The notes beneath the pieces are model-generated. The model was not told the DNA's origin. It did not search any database and saw only the letters and a program-made list of their open reading frames with translations. 64,000 nt of DNA from Sporohalobacter salinus (GTDB lineage Bacteria; Bacillota; Halanaerobiia; Halobacteroidales; Acetohalobiaceae): positions 1 through 64,000 of the forward strand of contig NZ_JAFBEG010000014.1 in NCBI RefSeq assembly GCF_016908635.1, read 5' to 3'. Made by a program: the position numbers and the translations under genes. This document shows, piece after piece, positions 51,759 through 63,321 of this stretch; positions within the stretch are counted from its first letter, which is position 1; each line of letters starts with the position of its first letter.

Positions 51759-52523
51759 GTGGTAGAAAGAAGAAGAGTAAAAGTACTTGATAATACTGTC
51801 GATATTTTAATGTTATTTTTAAAACATAAGAAACCATTAGGAATTACTGAAATAAGCAATTTGCTTCAAACTTACAAAAGTTCTGTTCATCGGATTTTGA
51901 CAACGCTTAAGTATAGAGGATTTATTCGTCAGAATTCTGAGACAAAAAAATATTGGTTAGGTAGTAAGTTCTTTTCATTAGGAATGCTCTATCAACAGGA
52001 ATTCAAATTACAGGATTTAGCAAGGCCTTACCTCCAACAGTTAGCAGCAGAATGTGGGGAAACAGTTCATTTAGCTATCTTTGATGAACTTGACTATACT
52101 AAGACGGTAACTATTGATAAAATTGAAGCATCTAATCGTTTGAGTATTTCACCATCAGCTGGCTCTCAAACTCCTGTCCACGCTACAGCAGTAGGTAAAG
52201 TGTTAGTAGCTTATTCTACTCATGAAATTCAAGAAACAGTTCTGACTTCATCATTAGAAAGGTTTACTGAAAATACTATTACTGATCAGAGTGGCTTTAA
52301 AGCAGAGTTAAAAGAGATTAATGAGCAGGGTTATGCTATAGATGATGAAGAATTAGAACCAGGCTTAACCTGTTTTGCCGCCCCCATTATTGGTGGTCAG
52401 AAGCAAGAGGTAGTAGCTAGTTTTAGCATTTCAGGCCCGCGAGTAAGAATGTTTGATAATCAAACTAAAATGATCGATAGTATTAAGATCACTGCTCATC
52501 AAATTAGTTCTGAATTGAAATAA
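51759..52523 (+). CDS. IclR-family transcriptional regulator
   Basis: The 254-residue protein has an N-terminal winged helix-turn-helix (LGITEISNLLQTYKSSVHRILTTL, about 24-47) and a C-terminal IclR effector domain with TVHLAIFDELDY and PVHATAVGKVLVAY. It is probably the local repressor or activator of the adjoining buk-ptb pathway, whose promoter has a perfect palindrome at 52576-52594. The effector is unknown. The GTG start has AAGGGAG about 11 bases upstream. Confidence 0.88.
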   Translation: MVERRRVKVLDNTVDILMLFLKHKKPLGITEISNLLQTYKSSVHRILTTLKYRGFIRQNSETKKYWLGSKFFSLGMLYQQEFKLQDLARPYLQQLAAECGETVHLAIFDELDYTKTVTIDKIEASNRLSISPSAGSQTPVHATAVGKVLVAYSTHEIQETVLTSSLERFTENTITDQSGFKAELKEINEQGYAIDDEELEPGLTCFAAPIIGGQKQEVVASFSISGPRVRMFDNQTKMIDSIKITAHQISSELK

Positions 52524-52566: not shown

Positions 52567-52596
52567 TGTTTAAAATTTAGAACGCTGTTCTAAAAT
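52567..52596 (+). promoter_or_regulatory. buk promoter with palindromic operator (52576-52594)
   Basis: TTTAGAAC-GCT-GTTCTAAA is a perfect inverted repeat with eight-base arms. It lies inside the spacer between TTGTTT (52567-52572) and TAAAAT (52591-52596), an 18-base promoter spacing, so a bound dimer would block RNA polymerase. The IclR gene directly upstream is the natural candidate; binding is inferred. Confidence 0.55.
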
Positions 52597-52624
52597 AATG
52601 AATTAAAAGAAGGGGGGGATTAGA

Positions 52625-53737
52625 ATTAAATCTAAGGTATTAGTAATTAATCCCGGTTCTACTTCTACTAAGTTGGCTGTTTTTAGCGGGAAGAGTGAAG
52701 CTTGGAGTGATTTAATAGAACATACGAGTGAAGACTTGAAAGGGTTTGAGAGAATAGTTGATCAACTGGATTGGCGTCGGCAATTAATAGTAAATGCAGT
52801 AAAAGAGGAGGATTTTAGTTTAGAAAATTTTGCTGCTATTGTAGCTCGTGGTGGATTATTAGATCCTATTCCTGGCGGAACTTACCGGATTGATGAAACT
52901 ATGATTGATGATCTTCGGACAGGTAAGAATGGAGAACATGCTTCAAATTTAGCGGGAATTATTGCTTATAATTTAGCTCGAGAAAAAGGTATTTCTGCTT
53001 TTACTGTAGATCCTATTGGAGTAGATGAGTTTGAACCATTAGCTCGTTTATCAGGGCTGCCGGAATTGCAGCGTAGATGTCAGTCTCATGCTTTGAACTT
53101 AAAGGCTATTGCTCGTAAGACAGCAGATACTTTAGGAACAGAATTAGAGAAAGTGAATTTAATAGGTGCTCATCTAGGGGGCGGCTTTTCTATTGCTGCT
53201 ATGAAACAAGGGAGAATTGTTGATGTTAATAATGCTAATCAGGGTGGGCCTTATTCTCCGGAACGTGTTGGAACCCTTCCTATTCTTGATTTAGTTGAAT
53301 ATGTCTATCAATCGGATCTAGATTTACAAAGTCTTAAAAAACGTTTAATTGGTAAAGGAGGGTTAGCAGCTTATTTAGGCACTACTGATGGTCGCAAGAT
53401 AGAAAAGATGATTGAGAATGGTAATAAAAAGGCTGAATTAGTTTATGAAGGTATGATTTATCAAATTGCTAAAGAAATTAGTGCCATGGCTGGGGTATTG
53501 TCAGGTAAGGTTGATGGTATTTTTTTAACTGGGGGATTAGCTCATTCTATATATGTAATGCACGGAGTTAAAAAAAGAGTTAAGTTTTTGGCACCGGTTA
53601 GGATTTATCCCGGGGCTGAAGAATTAAGACATTTGGCCTATGGAGCATTGCGAGTACTACAAGGAGTAGAAGAGGCTAAAGATTACGATGAAGAAAGGAG
53701 GAAACTTGATGCTCAACAATTTCAATCAATTAATTAA
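52625..53737 (+). CDS. buk: butyrate kinase (branched-chain/short-chain acyl kinase)
   Basis: The 370-residue acetate/butyrate kinase-family protein has VLVINPGSTSTKLAVF at the start, RGGLLDPIPGG, GAHLGGGFSIAA and GGLAHSIYVM. It converts acyl phosphate plus ADP to acid plus ATP. The only start that includes the essential N-terminal phosphate loop is ATT at 52625 (six bases after AGGGGGGG, followed by AAA TCT AAG); ATT 52619 is also in frame. The first in-frame usual start (TTG 52673) would remove that motif. The overlapping ptb gene begins 29 bases before its end. Confidence 0.9.
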   Translation: MKSKVLVINPGSTSTKLAVFSGKSEAWSDLIEHTSEDLKGFERIVDQLDWRRQLIVNAVKEEDFSLENFAAIVARGGLLDPIPGGTYRIDETMIDDLRTGKNGEHASNLAGIIAYNLAREKGISAFTVDPIGVDEFEPLARLSGLPELQRRCQSHALNLKAIARKTADTLGTELEKVNLIGAHLGGGFSIAAMKQGRIVDVNNANQGGPYSPERVGTLPILDLVEYVYQSDLDLQSLKKRLIGKGGLAAYLGTTDGRKIEKMIENGNKKAELVYEGMIYQIAKEISAMAGVLSGKVDGIFLTGGLAHSIYVMHGVKKRVKFLAPVRIYPGAEELRHLAYGALRVLQGVEEAKDYDEERRKLDAQQFQSIN

Positions 53738-54614
53738 TTTGGCCCAAAAGAAGAAAAAATTAAGGTTAGCTGTGGCTGCTGCGGAAGATCCAGTAGTTCT
53801 TTCTAGTATTAAGCAAGCAGTAGAATTGGAATTAATTGATCCAATTTTAATTGGAGATAGCGAAAAGATAGAAAAGCAGACGGAAGAAATAGGTTATAAG
53901 CCGAATAAAATTGTCGGGACTAATTCCAAATTGGAATCAGCTCAAACTGCTATGTCTTTGATTGCTAAAGGAGAATCTGATTACCCAATGAAGGGCTTGC
54001 TTAGTTCCAAAACTATTCTTAGGGCTTTATTAGATAAAGAATATGGATTGCGAAGAAATAGGCTCTTAAGTGTAGTGACATTAATTAATTTAGAACAGCA
54101 AAATAGAATGATAATTATGACCGATGGAGGAATGAATATAGCTCCTGACTTAGAGGAAAAGATACAGATTATTGAGAATGCCGTAGAAATAGCTCGGGCA
54201 CTTGGAATTGAAAAGGCGAAAGTAGCAGCATTAGCAGCTGTTGAAGATGTGAATCCTAAGATGCCAGTAACTAAGGAAGCAGCAACTTTAGCAAAAATGT
54301 CAGATCGTGATCAAATTGAGGGAGCTATTGTTGATGGCCCACTAGCTTTGGATAATGCTATCAGTAAAGAAGCTGCTAAACATAAAGGAATAGATAGTCC
54401 AGTAGCAGGTGAAGCTGATATTCTTTTGGTGCCTAATATTGAAGTAGGAAATGTACTCTATAAGTCATTAGTCTTCTATGCTGGACATGATTCAGCTAGT
54501 TTAGTTATGGGAGCTAAAGTACCTTTAGTCTTTACTTCTCGGGCTGATAAGACTATGACTAAATTTCATTCTATTCTGTTAGGGAAAATGGCAGCCTTAG
54601 ATATATTAGATTGA
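53709..54614 (+). CDS. ptb: phosphate butyryltransferase
   Basis: The 301-residue Pta/Ptb-family enzyme has KLRLAVAAAEDPVVLSSI near the start, GDSEKIEKQTEEIGY, KGLLSSKTILRALL and ADILLVPNIEVGNVLYKSL. It interconverts acyl-CoA and acyl phosphate. The order buk-ptb is reversed relative to Clostridium acetobutylicum ptb-buk. ATG 53709 follows AGGAGG; an in-frame ATG 53688 overlaps the ribosome site. Confidence 0.93.
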   Translation: MLNNFNQLINLAQKKKKLRLAVAAAEDPVVLSSIKQAVELELIDPILIGDSEKIEKQTEEIGYKPNKIVGTNSKLESAQTAMSLIAKGESDYPMKGLLSSKTILRALLDKEYGLRRNRLLSVVTLINLEQQNRMIIMTDGGMNIAPDLEEKIQIIENAVEIARALGIEKAKVAALAAVEDVNPKMPVTKEAATLAKMSDRDQIEGAIVDGPLALDNAISKEAAKHKGIDSPVAGEADILLVPNIEVGNVLYKSLVFYAGHDSASLVMGAKVPLVFTSRADKTMTKFHSILLGKMAALDILD

Positions 54615-54714
54615 GTATATTTTAGTTACTGTTGTTAGTCACTTATAAGTTTAATTAAGTTGAATTTTAGGTTATTTATATATGATTAGAATTAATAATA
54701 AGGGGGGATTTGTA

Positions 54715-55785
54715 ATGGATATTTTCGATGAAATGAAAGAACGGGGTCATGAACAGATTATCTTTAATTATGATGAGGAGACTGACTTAAAGATGATTAT
54801 TGCTATTCATGACACAACTTTAGGACCGGCGCTCGGTGGTTGTAGAATGAAGAATTATGAAAGTCAGGAAGAAGCACTGGATGATGTAATGCGGCTTTCT
54901 AAAGGAATGACTTATAAGTGTGGTGTAGCCGAAGTTGACTTTGGTGGTGCTAAAGCAATTATCTGGGGAGATCCGGAGGAAGATAAAAGCAAGGCAATGA
55001 TGAGAGCTGTTGGCCGCTTTGTGGAGACATTGGATAATCGCTTCTATACTGGTACTGATGTTGGTACTTATAGTGAAGACTTTATTTATTCTAATTGTGA
55101 GTCAGATCATATTGTAGGATTGCCGGAGTCTTATGGTGGTGGAGGTAATTCTGCAATTATTACAGCTTATGGTACTTACCGAGCTATTAAAGCAACAGCT
55201 AAGGAGGCTTTTGGTGATGATTCCTTAGAAGGATTAACAATATCTGTTCAGGGCTTGGGTAAGGTAGGTTATCGACTTTTAGACCATCTTCATGATGAAG
55301 GTGCAGAGTTGATAGGTACTGATGTTAAAGAGGAATATATTGAGCGGGCTAAAGAAGAGTATCCTATTGAGATTGTAGATCCTGATGAAATCTTTGGTGT
55401 TGAATGTGATATCTTTTCTCCTAATGCTTTAGGAGCAATTCTAGATGACGAAACGATTCCACAATTGAAGTGTAAAGCAATTGCTGGAGCAGCTAATAAT
55501 CAACTGGCTGAACCGCGCCATGGTGATAAATTGCATGAATTAGATATAGTTTATGCGCCGGATTATATCGCTAATGCTGGTGGATTAATGCAGGTAGCTG
55601 ATGAAGTAATCGGTTATAATGAGGAACGGGTTAAACAGCAGGCTACTAATATTTACGATATATTGTTAGAAATTTATGAAGTTTCTAACAAAAAGAATAT
55701 ACCTACTTATCAAGCAGCAGATGAAATGGTAGAAAATGATATCGAAACTATTAGCAGATTAAAAACTAATTATGTTGAAAAATAG
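54715..55785 (+). CDS. Leu/Val/Phe-type amino-acid dehydrogenase
   Basis: The 356-residue protein has LGPALGGCRMKNYES, SKGMTYKCGVAEVDFGGAKA with the catalytic Lys, and a C-terminal Rossmann domain ISVQGLGKVGYRLLDHL. These are features of leucine/valine dehydrogenases, which oxidatively deaminate branched-chain amino acids to 2-oxo acids with NAD. Glutamate or phenylalanine specificity cannot be excluded. ATG 54715 follows AGGGGGG. It precedes iorAB in the pathway order. Confidence 0.88.
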   Translation: MDIFDEMKERGHEQIIFNYDEETDLKMIIAIHDTTLGPALGGCRMKNYESQEEALDDVMRLSKGMTYKCGVAEVDFGGAKAIIWGDPEEDKSKAMMRAVGRFVETLDNRFYTGTDVGTYSEDFIYSNCESDHIVGLPESYGGGGNSAIITAYGTYRAIKATAKEAFGDDSLEGLTISVQGLGKVGYRLLDHLHDEGAELIGTDVKEEYIERAKEEYPIEIVDPDEIFGVECDIFSPNALGAILDDETIPQLKCKAIAGAANNQLAEPRHGDKLHELDIVYAPDYIANAGGLMQVADEVIGYNEERVKQQATNIYDILLEIYEVSNKKNIPTYQAADEMVENDIETISRLKTNYVEK

Positions 55786-55810
55786 AATATTTAGTTAAGA
55801 TTTTAGAGCC

Positions 55811-55866
55811 TAATACTTCTCTCTTTCTTAAGTATTTACTTTAGTAGCAGAAAGAGGGAAGTATTA
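55811..55866 (+). promoter_or_regulatory. long hairpin between dehydrogenase and iorA
   Basis: An 18-base stem (55811-55828 with 55849-55866, one G-U pair) encloses a 20-base loop and is followed only by ATTCTATT. It is a weak terminator or an RNA-processing or stabilising structure that could set different levels of the two genes. Confidence 0.5.
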
Positions 55867-55953
55867 ATTCTATTAGCATTAGTAACTGGGAATTATTAGC
55901 AAAGAATAATAAGAATTTTTTTAATATTAAGACATAAATAAGGAGGAACAAAT

Positions 55954-57717
55954 ATGGCAGAAGAATTACTTTTATCTGGTAATGAGGCCATTGCTAGAGG
56001 AGCTTATGAGGCTGGGGTTAGAGTAGCGACTGCTTATCCTGGAACACCTAGCACAGAAATTTTAGAAAATATTGTTGATTATAAAGAGGATATCTATTGC
56101 CAGTGGTCTCCAAATGAAAAAGTTGCTATGGAAGTAGCTATTGGTGCTGCTTTTGGTGGAGTGCGGACATTAGTGGCAATGAAGCATGTGGGTTTAAATG
56201 TGGCAGCAGATCCCTTTATGACACTTTCATATACCGGTGTTAGAGGTGGATTAGTAATTGTTACTGCTGATGATCCTAGTATGCATAGTTCGCAGAATGA
56301 ACAGGATAATCGCCATTATGCTCGGTTTGCTAAGGTACCAATGTTAGAGCCTAGTGATAGTCAGGAAGCAAAGGATTTCGTTGGTTATGCTTTGGATATC
56401 AGTGAAGAGTTTGATACACCGGTTATTTTACGAGTAACTACTAGAATTTCTCATGCTAAGACGGTAGTTGAGCCTGCTAAGAGAGAAGAGCAGCCAGTGC
56501 CAGAAGAGTTTGAGAAGGATCCAGAAAAATTTGTTATGGTTCCAGCTAATGCTCGCAAGCGGCATCCAATAGTCGAAGATCGACTTGAGAAAATTAGTCA
56601 GTATGGAGAAGAAGCATCAATAAATCAAGTTGAAAAAAATAGTCACCAGCTAGGTGTTATCACTAGCGGTATTAGTTATAACTATGTTAAGGAGGTCTTT
56701 TCTGGAGCTTCAATTTTGAAGTTAGGTTTGAGTTATCCACTGCCAAAACAGAAGATTAAGAATTTTGCAAAGCAAGTTGATAAAATCTATGTTATTGAAG
56801 AATTGGATCCTTTCTTAGAAAATCAGATTAAAGCTATGGGGATTGAGGTAATAGGTAAAGATAAACTTCCAGCTATCTATGAATTCAATACTAAAATAAT
56901 TCGGGATAGCTTATTAGAAGAACAGGAAGAGCTTGAAGTAGAACCAGTAGAAGATTTGCCTCCTAGACCGCCTGCTCTTTGTCCTGGTTGCCCGCACCGA
57001 GGTGTCTTTTATACCTTAAATAAGTTAGGAGTAGCAGTTACTGGTGATATTGGTTGCTATGCTTTAGGAGTAGTGCCGCCGCTATCAGCTATGGATACAG
57101 TAGTTTGTATGGGGGCTAGTGTTGGTAATGCCTTTGGAATGGAACTTGCCTTAGGAGATAAAATTAAAGGGGATATAGTAGGGGTAATAGGAGACTCTAC
57201 CTTTATGCATTCAGGAATTACAGGGTTAATCGATATTATGTATAATAAAGGTGCTTCTACTATTGTAATTTTAGATAATCGAATTACTGCTATGACAGGG
57301 CATCAGGAAAATCCAGTTACTGGAAAGACATTAATGGATGAGGAAACAGTATGTATTGATTTAGCTGAGTTAAGCACAGCTTTAGGTGTTAAAGAGGAGA
57401 ATGTGCGTACTATTGACCCTTATCATCTTAAAGCTACTAATAATGCAATAAAAGAAGAATTAGCTAAGGACGAAATTTCTATTGTTGTAGCTCAGCGTTC
57501 TTGTGCTCTCTTGAAGAGTGTTGATTTTAAAGAACCTTATTATGTAGATTCTGATAAATGTAAGGATTGTGGTCAGTGTCTTGATTTAGGTTGTCCGGCT
57601 ATAGTGAAAGAAGATGGTAAGGCTAAGATTAATGACTATCTCTGTACTGGTTGTGGAGTTTGTACTCAGGTATGCTCCTTTGATGCTATAGTAAGGGAGG
57701 GAGATAATGATGAGTAA
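55954..57717 (+). CDS. iorA: indolepyruvate ferredoxin oxidoreductase alpha subunit IorA
   Basis: The 587-residue protein has LLSGNEAIARGAYEAGVRVATAYPGTPSTEI, the CPGCPHRGVFY block, the TPP-binding GDSTFMHSGITGLIDIMYNKG with LDNRITAMTGHQENP, and two C-terminal [4Fe-4S] clusters (CKDCGQCLDLGCP and CTGCGVCTQVC). It oxidises aryl- and possibly other 2-oxo acids to acyl-CoA with ferredoxin. The stop overlaps iorB. Confidence 0.94.
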   Translation: MAEELLLSGNEAIARGAYEAGVRVATAYPGTPSTEILENIVDYKEDIYCQWSPNEKVAMEVAIGAAFGGVRTLVAMKHVGLNVAADPFMTLSYTGVRGGLVIVTADDPSMHSSQNEQDNRHYARFAKVPMLEPSDSQEAKDFVGYALDISEEFDTPVILRVTTRISHAKTVVEPAKREEQPVPEEFEKDPEKFVMVPANARKRHPIVEDRLEKISQYGEEASINQVEKNSHQLGVITSGISYNYVKEVFSGASILKLGLSYPLPKQKIKNFAKQVDKIYVIEELDPFLENQIKAMGIEVIGKDKLPAIYEFNTKIIRDSLLEEQEELEVEPVEDLPPRPPALCPGCPHRGVFYTLNKLGVAVTGDIGCYALGVVPPLSAMDTVVCMGASVGNAFGMELALGDKIKGDIVGVIGDSTFMHSGITGLIDIMYNKGASTIVILDNRITAMTGHQENPVTGKTLMDEETVCIDLAELSTALGVKEENVRTIDPYHLKATNNAIKEELAKDEISIVVAQRSCALLKSVDFKEPYYVDSDKCKDCGQCLDLGCPAIVKEDGKAKINDYLCTGCGVCTQVCSFDAIVREGDNDE

Positions 57718-58288
57718 TACTACTAACATTATGTTAGCCGGTGTAGGGGGGCAAGGAATTTTATTGGCCAGTGAGGTAATTTCTAAAGCAGCTTTGAAAG
57801 AGGGCTTTGATGTTAAAAAGTCTGAGGTACATGGTATGGCTCAGCGAGGTGGTAGTGTAGTTAGTAATGTAACTTATGGAGAGAAGGTTTATTCTCCGCT
57901 GATAGCTAAAGGAGAAGCAGATTTGCTGCTTGGTTTTGAACCGCTTGAAGCTTTAAGGTGGGGATATTATTTGAAATCAGATGGGGCAATCATTACTAAT
58001 ACTCAGCGGATAGATCCACTACCCGTTGCTGCTGGTAAGATAGAATATCCTGATAATGTAATTGATAGGTTAAAAACAATTGGTCAGCAAGTAATTAGTT
58101 TTGATGCTCTACAGTTAGCTCGTGATTTAGGAAATCAAAGAGTAGTGAATACTATTTTAATTGGAAAGTTTGCCAATTTCTCTGATATTTCCAATGGTTC
58201 ATTTAAAGAAATTATTGCTGAAAATGTACCTCCTAAAACCGTTGAACTTAATTTAAAGGCCTTTGAGGTTGGGAATGAACAGGAATAA
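57707..58288 (+). CDS. iorB: indolepyruvate ferredoxin oxidoreductase beta subunit IorB
   Basis: The 193-residue gamma-type POR domain begins NIMLAGVGGQGILLASEVI and has SEVHGMAQRGGSVVSNVTYG. It completes the enzyme with IorA. It overlaps iorA by 11 bases and starts with two consecutive ATG codons (57707 and 57710), preceded by AAGGGAGGGAG. Confidence 0.94.
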   Translation: MMSNTTNIMLAGVGGQGILLASEVISKAALKEGFDVKKSEVHGMAQRGGSVVSNVTYGEKVYSPLIAKGEADLLLGFEPLEALRWGYYLKSDGAIITNTQRIDPLPVAAGKIEYPDNVIDRLKTIGQQVISFDALQLARDLGNQRVVNTILIGKFANFSDISNGSFKEIIAENVPPKTVELNLKAFEVGNEQE

Positions 58289-58377
58289 GAAAAAAGGATT
58301 GTAGCTAAGAAGTGAGTAGGGGGATTTTTAGGTGAGTTAGATTTGATTAAATAGTAGCGAAAGGGGAGCAGATAAAG

Positions 58378-59874
58378 ATGGCTGAAGAAGAGCAGTGGCA
58401 AAGCCGGTTAGGTTTTATCTTAGCAGTGATAGGTTCGGCAGTCGGGTTGGGGAATATTTGGCGTTTTAGTTATGTGGTTTATGATAATGGCGGTGGTGCC
58501 TTTTTAATTCCTTATTTAGTTGCTCTTTTTATAGTCGGAATTCCGGTTTTAATTTTGGAATTTAGTTTTGGGCAGAAGATGAGGAGTTCAGCTGCTTTAG
58601 CTTTTAGGCGTTTTTCTAGTAAATGGGAGTGGTTAGGTTGGTGGCCTTCTTTAGCTACTTTAGTTTTAGTTATCTATTACATGGCAATCATTGGTTGGAG
58701 TTTAAACTATGTAATTTATTCTTTAGGTCTTAATTGGGGAGCTAATCCTGAAGCCTTTTTCTATAATTCCCATTTGCAGTTAACTTCCGGTCCTATGGAA
58801 ATTGGGGGGATAAATTGGATAATCTTTGCTAGTGTTTTAGTTATTTGGTTAATCAATTATTGGATTATCTATAATGGTATCGAATCTGGCATTGAGAAAG
58901 CAGCTAAAATTTTCATGCCCTTGCTAGGAGTTTTAATGGTAATTATTACAATTCGAGGACTGACTCTTCCGGGAGCAACTAATGGCGTCATTAAATATCT
59001 AAAACCTGATTTTTCACAGTTAATGAACGTCAAAGTCTGGATTGCAGCTTTCAGTCAGATCTTTTTTACACTTAGTATTGGCTGGGCTGTAATGATTACT
59101 TACTCTAGCTATCAGCCTAAAGATTCTGATGTAGTCGGTAATGCCTTTATTGCTAGTTTTTCTAACTGCGGTTTCAGTATCATTGTTGGTTTAGGAGTTT
59201 TTGGAATTCTCGGCTATATGGCAACCCAGACGGGACAGCCGATAGATGAATTGGTAACTCAAAGCATTGGTTTAGCTTTTATAGCATTTCCCAAGGCAAT
59301 CAACATGTTGCCTGCTTTCAAAACATTATTTGCTTTTCTCTTCTTCAGTTCATTAGTAATTGCTGGTCTATCGTCTAGTATTTCGATGATTGAAGCTACA
59401 GTAGCTAATATCCAGGATAAATTTGCGTTAACTCGGCAGAAGTCAGCTACAATAGTTTGTAGTTTAGGCTTTATAGCTAGTATTCTCTTTACCACTGGAG
59501 CTGGATTATATCTACTGGATATCATTGACCACTTTTTGATGGAGTTCGGAGCAGGATTAGCAGCCATTTTCTTTTGTTTGGTGCTAGGCTGGCAGTATGG
59601 GGCAAAGCGGCTGCGAAAGTTTATGAACCCTATTTCTGATTTAAAAGTTGGTATTTGGTGGGACAGCATGATTAAATTTATAACTCCGGCCATCTTGATA
59701 GTATTATTTATTAAAGGAATATTTACAGATTTAACAGAAGGTTATGCTGGTTATCCTTTTAAAGCATTATCGATAGGATTGGTTGTAGCTATTGGAGTTA
59801 TCCTGCTTGGGATTTATCTTTCCACCTTATCTTGGAAGGATGAAGAGCTAATCAATTTTAAGGATAAAGTATAA
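58378..59874 (+). CDS. sodium-dependent transporter (NSS/SNF family)
   Basis: The 498-residue membrane protein opens with RLGFILAVIGSAVGLGNIWRFSY, containing the TM1 sodium and substrate site, then GGGAFLIPYLVALFIVGIPVLILEF, and has about 11-12 helices with FFTLSIGWAVMITYSSY. Bacterial NSS members (LeuT, MhsT, TnaT types) import amino acids with sodium. Here it probably supplies branched-chain or aromatic substrates for the nearby catabolic enzymes, suited to a halophile. AAAGGGGAGC precedes its ATG by about eight bases. Confidence 0.9.
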   Translation: MAEEEQWQSRLGFILAVIGSAVGLGNIWRFSYVVYDNGGGAFLIPYLVALFIVGIPVLILEFSFGQKMRSSAALAFRRFSSKWEWLGWWPSLATLVLVIYYMAIIGWSLNYVIYSLGLNWGANPEAFFYNSHLQLTSGPMEIGGINWIIFASVLVIWLINYWIIYNGIESGIEKAAKIFMPLLGVLMVIITIRGLTLPGATNGVIKYLKPDFSQLMNVKVWIAAFSQIFFTLSIGWAVMITYSSYQPKDSDVVGNAFIASFSNCGFSIIVGLGVFGILGYMATQTGQPIDELVTQSIGLAFIAFPKAINMLPAFKTLFAFLFFSSLVIAGLSSSISMIEATVANIQDKFALTRQKSATIVCSLGFIASILFTTGAGLYLLDIIDHFLMEFGAGLAAIFFCLVLGWQYGAKRLRKFMNPISDLKVGIWWDSMIKFITPAILIVLFIKGIFTDLTEGYAGYPFKALSIGLVVAIGVILLGIYLSTLSWKDEELINFKDKV

Positions 59875-60102
59875 TTAAATTAAAATAAATGCCTCCTTAC
59901 TATGGAATCATTTAGCCTTCTTCATGAGAAAAATTTTCGTTTAATAAAGTTCAAAATTTAAAGTAATAAATATTTTTAATTTCAAATAAAGTTATGTTTA
60001 GATTGTTTTTGAATGATTAAGTATTTTTTATTATTTTAATTACCAGAATATATAAAGGAGGTATTAATACTTTTTAAGAAGTTATCATAAAAGGAGGCTA
60101 AA

Positions 60103-61083
60103 ATGATGACTTGTCCAAAGGTATATGTTACTCGTGAATTGCCCCAAAAAGCCTTAAGCATGCTTAAGGAAGAATGTGAAGTGGAAGTAAATCCCCATGA
60201 TCGACCGTTAACTAGATTAGAGTTAAAGAAAGCAATAGAGGATGTTGATGGTCTATTATGTTTACTGACTGATCAGATTGATGCTGAGCTTTTAGATCTT
60301 AATCCAAAATTAAAGGTGATCGCTAATTATGCTGTAGGTTATGATAATATTGAACTTAAGGCCTGTACTGAACGGGGAATTGCTGTTTCTAATACTCCAG
60401 GAGTGTTGACTGAAACTACAGCAGATTTAACTTGGGCTTTGCTGATGTCTGTTGCAAGGAGAATTGTAGAAGGTGACAAATTTACTCGAGCTGGAAATTA
60501 TGAAAATTGGGGTCCAATGATGTTATTAGGAAAAGATATTTCGGGTAAGACATTAGGAATTGTAGGTATGGGAAGAATAGGTGAAGCTGTAGCGAAGAGA
60601 GCTAAAGGATTTGATATGGAAGTGCTCTATTATGATCTTGAGCGAAAAGATAGAGTTAAAGAACAAGAACTAAGTATTAAATATAGAGAGTTTGATACTT
60701 TATTACAGGAAGCTGATTTTATTAGTTTACATGTCCCGCTTAATTCTGCTACTGAGAACTTAATTAGTGAACGAGAGCTGGAATTAATGAAAGAATCGGC
60801 CTACTTGATTAATACTTCTCGGGGAGCAGTAATTGATGAACAAGTTTTAGTTTATGCTCTTAGAAATGGAGAAATAGCTGGAGCTGGATTAGATGTGTAT
60901 GAGGATGAACCAAAATTAACTCCTGGATTAGCTAAATTGAATAATGTAGTTGTAACTCCTCATATTGGGAGTGCAAGTATAGATACAAGAACTAAAATGG
61001 CTACAATGGCGGCGGAAAATCTATTAGCTGGTCTTCAAGATGAAGAAATGCCTAATCTTTTGAACCCTGAAGTATTAGACTAA
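60103..61083 (+). CDS. D-2-hydroxyacid dehydrogenase (glyoxylate/hydroxypyruvate reductase type)
   Basis: The 326-residue protein has VGYDNIELKACTERGIAVSNTPGVLTETTADL, the NAD motif GIVGMGRIGEAVAKRAKG (about 150-167), INTSRGAVIDE with the catalytic Arg, and TPHIGSAS with the catalytic His. It reduces 2-oxo acids to D-2-hydroxy acids. The family fits GyaR; with its neighbours it may dispose of 2-oxo acids or balance NADH. ATG 60106 is an alternative with better spacing from AGGAGG. The 228 bases before it are AT-rich; AAAGGAGGTATTAA at 60057 is a second ribosome-like site with no real frame. Confidence 0.9.
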   Translation: MMTCPKVYVTRELPQKALSMLKEECEVEVNPHDRPLTRLELKKAIEDVDGLLCLLTDQIDAELLDLNPKLKVIANYAVGYDNIELKACTERGIAVSNTPGVLTETTADLTWALLMSVARRIVEGDKFTRAGNYENWGPMMLLGKDISGKTLGIVGMGRIGEAVAKRAKGFDMEVLYYDLERKDRVKEQELSIKYREFDTLLQEADFISLHVPLNSATENLISERELELMKESAYLINTSRGAVIDEQVLVYALRNGEIAGAGLDVYEDEPKLTPGLAKLNNVVVTPHIGSASIDTRTKMATMAAENLLAGLQDEEMPNLLNPEVLD

Positions 61084-61153
61084 AAATTAAGTTGCATGAA
61101 TTTTATTGTCTTTGTTATGTTAAATTTTTTATATTGAAAGGAGGTGACTAGAG

Positions 61154-61978
61154 ATTAAATTAGACTTTGTTAAGTTAAGTCCAGCAGAGAATACTACTGT
61201 CTTGATAACCAATTATGTACAGAGGGAGTTATATTCAGAATTGGCAGCTAAAGTTATGGACTATATCCATATACATGCTGAGCAGGTTGGTTTCATTACT
61301 GAACCACAGAATGAAGAAGCTACTTTGAGGTTGGAGATGTCTGGAGGAGAGTTTTGTGGGAATGGAGTATTAGCAGCTGGGGCTTTGGCTGGATATCTAG
61401 GGATGAATAATAGTAATTCTTTCAGAATTGAGTCTTCTGGAGTTGACGAGACTTTAGAATGTACTATTAGACAAAATGACGAAAGAAGTTATGTGGTTAA
61501 CTCTTCTATGCCCTTGGATTATAATTATAGGGAGTGGAAAGATGTAGTACAGGGAAGAGACCTTACAGGAATGCTTATTGAATTTAGAGGAATAACTCAT
61601 TTGTTGATCCAGGATGATGTTTTAGATGATGAGTTGATAGAGATGATTGTAAAGAGATTAGCTCAGCAGCTTTCAGTTGAAGCTTTGGGAGTAATTTCTT
61701 ATAAAGAATCGACAGGAGGCTATAGAATAAAGCCTTGTGTCTATGTTCCTGGAACCGGAAGTTTAGTTTTTGAAAGGGGATGTGGTTCGGGGACTTTAGC
61801 TTTAGGTTTACATATATCAAATCAGAAGAAAGAGTCGATGGAACTTAATGTAAAGCAGCCAGGTGGTACTATTAAAGTAGAGATAATTCTTTCTACTTCT
61901 GAAGAAGAGATTATTATTGAAGATGCTTTTTTAGAAACAGAGATAGAGATTACTTGTGAAGGGAAAGTTTTGATTTGA
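61154..61978 (+). CDS. DapF-superfamily amino-acid racemase, CntK-like
   Basis: The 274-residue protein has the two DapF-fold active cysteines: MSGGEFCGNG (Cys at about 68) and FERGCGSGTLALG (about 210). EQVGFI, YVPGTGSLVFERGCGSGT and QPGGTIKVE resemble CntK (histidine racemase of staphylopine synthesis) more than standard DapF. It racemises or epimerises an unidentified amino acid. The frame begins with ATT at 61154 (IKLDFVKLSPAENTTV), six bases after AGGAGGTGA; the first standard start (TTG 61202) would delete the conserved N-terminal strand. It follows the 2-hydroxyacid dehydrogenase by 70 bases. Confidence 0.75.
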   Translation: MKLDFVKLSPAENTTVLITNYVQRELYSELAAKVMDYIHIHAEQVGFITEPQNEEATLRLEMSGGEFCGNGVLAAGALAGYLGMNNSNSFRIESSGVDETLECTIRQNDERSYVVNSSMPLDYNYREWKDVVQGRDLTGMLIEFRGITHLLIQDDVLDDELIEMIVKRLAQQLSVEALGVISYKESTGGYRIKPCVYVPGTGSLVFERGCGSGTLALGLHISNQKKESMELNVKQPGGTIKVEIILSTSEEEIIIEDAFLETEIEITCEGKVLI

Positions 61979-62034: not shown

Positions 62035-62060
62035 GTATATAGAATAAGTGAATATAATCA

Positions 62061-62231
62061 ACGTTTTAGGTTCAGTAGTTATACTACTGATTAAAAGGGA
62101 AGAGCGGTGCAAATCCGCCACGGTCCCGCCACTGTAACTGATAAATTAGGTTTAGATGCCACTTGAATAAGTAATTCAGGGAAGGTTGAGTCTAATATTA
62201 AGTCAGAAGTCAGGAGACCTGCCTAAAATGT
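62061..62231 (+). ncRNA. cobalamin riboswitch 5 (cobO)
   Basis: The closing helix ACGTTTTAGG (62061-62070) pairs with CCTAAAATGT (62222-62231, one G-U pair). GGTGCAAATCCGCCACGGTCCCGCCACTGTAA-type core elements (from 62106) and the B12 box GTCAGGAGACCTGCC are present. Downstream CTCACGAGGATGA can pair with TCATCC and CGTGAG of the terminator region, a plausible antiterminator. Confidence 0.94.
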
Positions 62232-62287
62232 CGGTAATATCACTCACGAGGATGAGAGATGTTAGTAATTAGCAAGTAGCTTAAGTC

Positions 62288-62354: not shown

Positions 62355-62870
62355 ATGGAAGAAGGATGTATTCAAGTTTATACAGGTAACGGCAAAGGAA
62401 AGACAACAGCCTCCTTAGGATTGGCACTTAGAGCTGTTTGTGCAGGTAAAAAAGTTTATTTTGGTCAATTTGTTAAGGGAATGGAATATAGTGAAGTTAA
62501 AGCTGAGGATTATTTATCCAATTTTGAGATTCATCAATTTGGTAGAAACTGTTTTATTTATGATGAACCAACTGATGAGGATATAGAAATAGCTCGACAA
62601 GGACTTAATAAATGTCAAGAAGTTTTAGCCAGTGGAGAGTATGATGTAGTGGTATTAGATGAGATTAATATTGCTTTATATTTTGAGCTTTTTTCTGTTG
62701 AAGAAGTTCTTGAAGTATTAGAAACTAAGGCTTCTGGAGTAGAAGCTATTTTGACAGGGAGATATGCTCCTGAAGAGATAATTGAAAAAGCAGATTTAGT
62801 TACAAATATGGATGAGGTCAAGCATTATTATTATCAGGGAGTTGCAGCTAGAAAAGGAATTGAAAATTAA
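62355..62870 (+). CDS. cobO: cob(I)yrinic acid a,c-diamide adenosyltransferase CobO
   Basis: The 171-residue CobA/CobO/BtuR-type protein has the P-loop YTGNGKGKTTASLGLALRA (about 9-27), VVLDEINIAL and LTGRYAPEEIIEKADLVTNM. It transfers the 5'-deoxyadenosyl group of ATP to cobalt, making coenzyme B12 forms. AGGAGG is nine bases before the ATG. It is the only intact gene of the riboswitch-5 unit. Confidence 0.95.
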   Translation: MEEGCIQVYTGNGKGKTTASLGLALRAVCAGKKVYFGQFVKGMEYSEVKAEDYLSNFEIHQFGRNCFIYDEPTDEDIEIARQGLNKCQEVLASGEYDVVVLDEINIALYFELFSVEEVLEVLETKASGVEAILTGRYAPEEIIEKADLVTNMDEVKHYYYQGVAARKGIEN

Positions 62871-63020: not shown

Positions 63021-63321
63021 ATTAAAAATATTAAATATAATACCTTCAAGTGATCTTGATTTAAAACATCAATTGGAAGTGTTGAATGTAGTTAAAGATC
63101 AAGTGAATCAGGGAATTTCAGCAATAATAGCAATTCATGATCTCAGTTTAGCTGGTAGGTATTGTGATAAAATAGTAATGCTTGATAATGGATGTGTTTT
63201 TGATGCTGGTGGTTTAGAAATTTTGACACCGAAGAATATTGAAACTGTTTATGATGTAAAAGTTAGTGTTAAGAATCATTATGGAAGAAGATTGGTAGTA
63301 TCTGAAGAGCCAATAGCATAA
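63021..63321 (+). pseudogene. internally deleted ABC ATPase (FecE/BtuD-like)
   Basis: After AGGAGTTTA an ATT-initiated stub reads IKNIKYN, like the start of an ABC ATPase. In another frame from 63040 the text continues as PSSDLDLKHQLEVLNVV, IAIHDLSLAGRYCDKIVML and VYDVKVSVKNHYG, which is the end of a cobalamin/iron-type ATPase from just after the Walker B motif. Walker A, Q-loop, signature and Walker B are missing, so about 140 codons were deleted. A TTG at 63073 could in theory start an 82-residue peptide, but it would lack nucleotide-binding motifs. It may be the remnant of a second B12/iron importer beside cobO. Confidence 0.7.

Follow-up and report, generated by a model that had tools for sequence, protein, structure and literature searches.

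Butyrate kinase and racemase genes with putative ATT starts

The window analysed here is a 64,000-nt stretch (contig NZ_JAFBEG010000014.1) of Sporohalobacter salinus, a salt-loving anaerobe. It carries two intact, full-length open reading frames, buk and a racemase gene, for both of which an initial annotation had claimed an ATT start codon, together with the remnant of an ABC transporter gene. The features concerned are as follows.

52604 to 52606, + strand: in-frame stop TAA upstream of buk, which shuts off starts farther upstream (from the sequence)
52610 to 52618, + strand: Shine-Dalgarno (SD) sequence AAGGGGGGG of buk, computed pairing -12.3 kcal/mol, aligned spacing 8
52625 to 52627, + strand: ATT, putative start codon of buk, from SD spacing and from homologues with TTG/ATG at or beside the codon
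52625 to 53737, + strand: buk, butyrate kinase, 370 aa counted from the ATT (TIGR02707; PDB 1saz)
61137 to 61147, + strand: SD sequence AAAGGAGGTGA of the racemase gene, containing an in-frame stop TGA at 61145, computed pairing -20.7 kcal/mol, aligned spacing 9
61154 to 61156, + strand: ATT, putative start codon of the racemase gene; the aligned codon is ATT in G009, ATC in G006, TTG in G020 and GTG in G049
61154 to 61978, + strand: DapF-fold racemase, histidine-racemase-like, 274 aa from the ATT (NF052224, NF033599; PDB 9cr6)
63028 to 63321, + strand: ABC ATPase remnant, C-terminal third only (profile match); the ATTAAA at 63021 is outside its frame

The buk SD is followed by ATTAGA and then by ATT AAA TCT at 52625. 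After the in-frame TAA, the first canonical codon is a TTG at 52673, 16 codons into the conserved fold; an ATG at 52598 is in the buk frame but has AAT TAA directly after it. In a profile search, residues 4-352 matched positions 1-350 of the TIGR02707 butyrate kinase profile (E 2.8e-142), and in a structure-database comparison residue 4 paired with chain residue 3 of PDB 1saz/1x9j. The racemase gene reads ATT AAA TTA at 61154, its next canonical start is a TTG at 61202, 16 codons downstream, and the histidine racemase of PDB 9cr6 aligns from residue 3. The absence of ATG, GTG or TTG between the SD and the conserved strand, as claimed in the initial annotation, thus holds for both genes. The spacings of 8 and 9 nt compare with a peak at 7-8 nt for the ATG genes of the genome, whose median SD pairing is -12.3 kcal/mol. 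SD spacing, the upstream stop and the starts of homologues bear out the buk start at 52625, and the SD, the in-frame TGA and the homologue start codons do the same for the racemase start at 61154.

The racemase matched NF052224 (E 1e-39) and the CntK family NF033599 (E 1.6e-38), both under the curated cut-offs (132.7 bits against 300 for CntK, 136.8 bits against 400 for HisR). By these scores it would be a DapF-fold enzyme related to CntK and HisR that falls below the cut-offs of both.

Several other features were seen nearby. Between the gene for an IclR-type regulator (51759-52523) and buk lies a perfect inverted repeat, TTTAGAAC-GCT-GTTCTAAA (52576-52594), which is probably the operator of that regulator; its core, GAACAGCGTTC, is also found upstream of buk in locus L025. 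Downstream of buk is ptb, which has an ATG start, and the ATT could set buk output below that of ptb. Beyond the racemase gene, a cobalamin riboswitch (RF00174, 123 bits) at 62051-62240 precedes a CobA/BtuR-like gene at 62355.

A third ATT start, at the ATTAAA of 63021, had been proposed for the ABC gene. This proposal fails on the reading frame: 63021 falls in frame 0 (modulo 3) and the ABC sequence in frame 1, and 15 stops interrupt the frame of the ATT. What is left in the ABC frame matches a FecE/BtuD-type ATPase profile only over its C-terminal third (about positions 170-252 of 261), so that the gene is a remnant.

Start codons of homologues

The initial annotation had suggested comparing the start codons of orthologues. 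Some 40 buk homologues nearly always have TTG or ATG behind an SD, at most 2 codons from the aligned site, as in ggaggagataaac TTG AAA TCA against ATT AAA TCT here; a non-canonical buk start is consequently not conserved among them. Among 61 relatives the racemase was found in only 6, and in one of these the match is weak. At its aligned site the codon is ATT, ATC, TTG or GTG, with an SD before each, and the start is non-canonical in three genomes (ATT, ATT and ATC) that span two families. It had also been asked whether orthologues lack the residues upstream of the TTG codons; these residues are instead conserved in all homologues of both proteins. Because Ile, Met, Leu and Val swap easily in proteins, and Ile codons are themselves ATH, the codon alignment by itself is weaker than it appears, and SD register and upstream stops bear much of the case.

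AUU, AUA and AUC starts across the sampled genome

The sample comprised 1.26 Mb of the genome (47%), read as separate stretches. We trained a hexamer coding model, kept 1143 good open reading frames and scored SD sequences by anti-SD pairing. Where a strong SD was left without a canonical codon, ATT, ATA or ATC (AUH in the mRNA, for AUU/AUA/AUC) occurred in 15 of 56 cases, against a coding background of 9.6% (binomial p=2e-4). None of the other near-cognates (CTG, ACG, AAG) stood out at such orphan SDs in the sampled genome. After review by eye, which enters all counts called credible here, about 13 of the 1143 sampled genes (1.1%) retained an AUH start. The following genes, with buk and the racemase gene, make up this list; their names are our reading of the sequences, the family libraries having been run for the genes of the window only.

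C5:24964: sigma-70-like factor, start ATT
C5:79858: sigma-28-like factor, start ATA
C1:274183: PilC, start ATT
C10:69124: SpoVB-like flippase, start ATT
C1:3976: P-type ATPase, start ATC
C8:35808: YkuD-LysM protein, start ATT, with a GTG inside its SD as the alternative
C7:48281: mutarotase-like protein
C4:24354: large lipoprotein-like protein
C6:45932: baseplate-like protein
C6:71988: amidohydrolase-like protein
C11:37019: 77-aa protein, start ATA

The repeated use of ATT that had been claimed is therefore real and wider than stated, and extrapolation would give some 25-30 AUH-start genes per genome. A genome-wide search for an SD followed by ATTAAA, also proposed earlier, showed no enrichment: GGAGG-N4-9-ATTAAA occurred 30 times against 69 for the reversed control, so that the motif by itself is of no use as a marker. 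A comparison of SD strength between AUH and canonical starts (p=0.012) was set aside, because the search threshold biases it. Also dropped on review were the cases TTG-ATT and ATG-ATA-ATT, an internal ABC match and the copies of a repeat in genome G005. The G005 copies, near C1:51408 and C1:84337, are two almost identical genes whose poly-A runs beside the start are one A apart in length, a pattern suggestive of a mobile element that slips or frameshifts.

Several of these starts could be followed across two families. The SpoVB-like start in 8 genomes is ATT, ATC, ATT, ATC, ATC, ATA, ATA and ATA; that of PilC is ATT in 5 genomes, ATC in G003 and ATG in G004; and that of the P-type ATPase is ATC, ATT, ATT and ATT, with a stop 2-3 codons upstream in two of them. 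The sigma-28-like start is ATA in 5 genomes of family f1 and ATG in 3 of f2, the 77-aa protein has ATA twice, ATC once and ATG four times, and the sigma-70-like start is ATT in three genomes, the fourth (G001) having an ATG one codon upstream. The A and the T are thus usually kept and the third base drifts among T, C, A and G. An initiator tRNA that accepts a mismatch at the third base would predict such drift, which would be harder to explain with translation starting elsewhere.

Where translation of buk and the racemase begins

The anatomy of the two starts, the absence of canonical alternatives, the conservation in orthologues and an ordinary initiator tRNA (see below) all point the same way: very probably, as judged from sequence, buk and the racemase gene are intact genes translated from ATT, and belong to a minor, conserved class of AUH-start genes whose third base drifts. 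Were translation to begin instead at the downstream TTG codons (52673 and 61202), which are the first in-frame canonical ones, the proteins would be shorter than their relatives. For the racemase TTG an upstream pairing of -10 kcal/mol at a spacing of 11 can be computed, whereas the buk TTG has just -5.5 kcal/mol at a spacing of 16. A start there would cost buk its VINPGSTSTK and the racemase its first strand, both of which every homologue conserves, and the strong upstream SDs would then serve nothing; we hold this reading to be very unlikely indeed. Only a little easier to credit, and still very unlikely, is a start that has decayed by a recent change of ATG or TTG to ATT, with loss of expression, or that was misread in sequencing. 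Since the buk ATT is known from one genome, and near relatives, including those of the same genus, have no close orthologue, a base error has some small chance in that gene. Both open reading frames are nevertheless intact and of full length, two further genera or species share an AUH start in the racemase gene (G009 with ATT, G006 with ATC), and neither decay nor error can account for the other AUH starts that are conserved over two families.

Entry from a canonical start farther upstream, followed by stop readthrough or frameshifting, is barely credible. It could draw on the ATG AAT TAA at 52598 in the buk frame, and slippage does account for the two false candidates of G005, copies of a repeat whose poly-A runs are unequal in length. 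However, the ATG at 52598 has no SD, the strong SD comes after the stop, in the racemase gene a TGA lies 9 nt before the ATT and that ATG has no counterpart, and the homologues are without such an upstream start.

Initiation in the lineage

The initial annotation had further suggested that initiation is relaxed or regulated in the lineage. Relaxation, for instance through an altered IF3, would give many AUH starts and would add to translation from ATT, with which it is compatible. We examined two controls with the same filter. In 800 kb of the clostridial Acetoanaerobium noterae, 5 matches were found among 712 genes, of which about 4 were credible, including an RNase Y-like gene with ATT ATA behind AAGGAGGTGG; the record used, NZ_CP154629.1 (2.63 Mb), is filed as a plasmid and is probably a chromosome. 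Three outgroup Halanaerobiia (G019, G014 and G028) gave about 2 credible starts among 376 genes. With controls this small and counts reviewed by eye, 13 of 1143 differs significantly neither from about 4 of 712 (p=0.32) nor from about 2 of 376 (p=0.38). The unreviewed rates of the strict filter were similar across the sampled genomes, with about 1.2-1.5% for six of them and 0.7% for A. noterae, and the matches were therefore reviewed by eye.

The initiation machinery was inspected as well. The initiator tRNA is ordinary:

440 to 516, + strand: initiator tRNA, CAU anticodon, GGG/CCC anticodon stem

A special initiator tRNA was looked for and discarded: among the tRNA loci that were readable (those of 30 of the 50 tRNA matches were truncated), the only initiator tRNAs had CAU and a normal stem. 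IF3 is full length, which rules out a broken factor. At G000:C31:10060-10314 (L001) and in the family f1 relatives it carries Asp where E. coli IF3 has Arg147, and Asn in place of Arg112, two arginines that we take to contact the 30S subunit. These substitutions are a correlation only and, from the sequence, a possible lead on start-codon discrimination.

Relaxation of the lineage thus has in its favor the IF3 of family f1 and AUH starts at about 1% both here and in G001; against it stand rates not significantly different from those of the two small controls, an ordinary initiator tRNA and the failure of CTG, ACG and AAG to stand out. We think it rather unlikely: repeated use holds, and a relaxation particular to this lineage does not follow from the rates. 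A literature search on start codons in Halobacteroidales returned nothing.

Proposed mechanism and significance

For translation from ATT, the strong SD pairing (about -12 and -21 kcal/mol) would anchor the mRNA and set the AUU in the ribosomal P site, where initiator tRNA-fMet (CAU) would pair with the A and the U and be mismatched at the third base. The proteins would then begin with formyl-Met. Efficiency would presumably be lower, in the range of about 10-30% of AUG that AUU and AUA give in S. aureus, and by analogy AUH starts may be sensitive to IF3. Their likely purpose is a low, tunable output. A bolder reading, which we put forward tentatively and with more doubt than belief, is that each genome of the order keeps some 25-30 AUH-start genes, a conserved set (the sigma factors, the SpoVB-like flippase, PilC, the P-type ATPase, buk and the racemase among them) that forms a shared IF3-responsive regulon, in which the third start base is free to drift across families.

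Gene callers normally permit ATG, GTG and TTG only, so that AUH genes receive a clipped N-terminus or pass as pseudogenes. If about 1% of genes have AUH starts at sites conserved in orthologues, near-cognate initiation would be a broad layer of expression control, beyond a curiosity of infC. The SpoVB-like, PilC and sigma-28-like orthologue sets offer a simple comparative test for AUH genes in other phyla.

Comparison with known systems

The classic case is infC, which encodes IF3, starts with AUU, AUA or AUC and is autoregulated by IF3. The genes described here share with it an AUH codon behind a strong SD, and the organism's own infC starts with ATA or ATT (AGGAGGTGTGTA ATA ATT). They differ in being metabolic, cell-wall and sigma-factor genes, whereas the link to IF3 is known for infC. 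Also comparable are the S. aureus genes cvfC1 (AUU), ccpN (AUA) and citZ (AUA), which have extended SDs; in reporters, AUU or AUA with an extended SD gave about 10% of AUG output, and ccpN up to 30% in rich medium (PMC13009471). Both sets combine AUH codons with extended SDs, and cvfC1 and ccpN are likewise conserved between species (PMC13009471). The S. aureus set numbers only four including infC and comes with ribosome profiling (PMC13009471), whereas here about 13 genes in half a genome were found from sequence alone, and the third start base varies between orthologues.

E. coli pcnB, as cited in PMC13009471, is alike in being an enzyme gene kept low by AUU and unlike in being an unrelated gene with, according to that citation, experimental proof. 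Streptomyces sigR has a GUC start that is repressed by IF3 (PMC5472188). There too a non-canonical start holds a potent protein low, a sigma factor under IF3, and two sigma-like factors here have AUU or AUA; its codon is however GUC, and IF3 dependence is proven for sigR (PMC5472188), whereas the present case is drawn from the DNA. In Salmonella, Ribo-RET detected one AUU-initiated N-terminal proteoform (PMC11005335). The phenomenon is thus already known in kind; what is new is the size of the AUH set and its conservation among orthologues.
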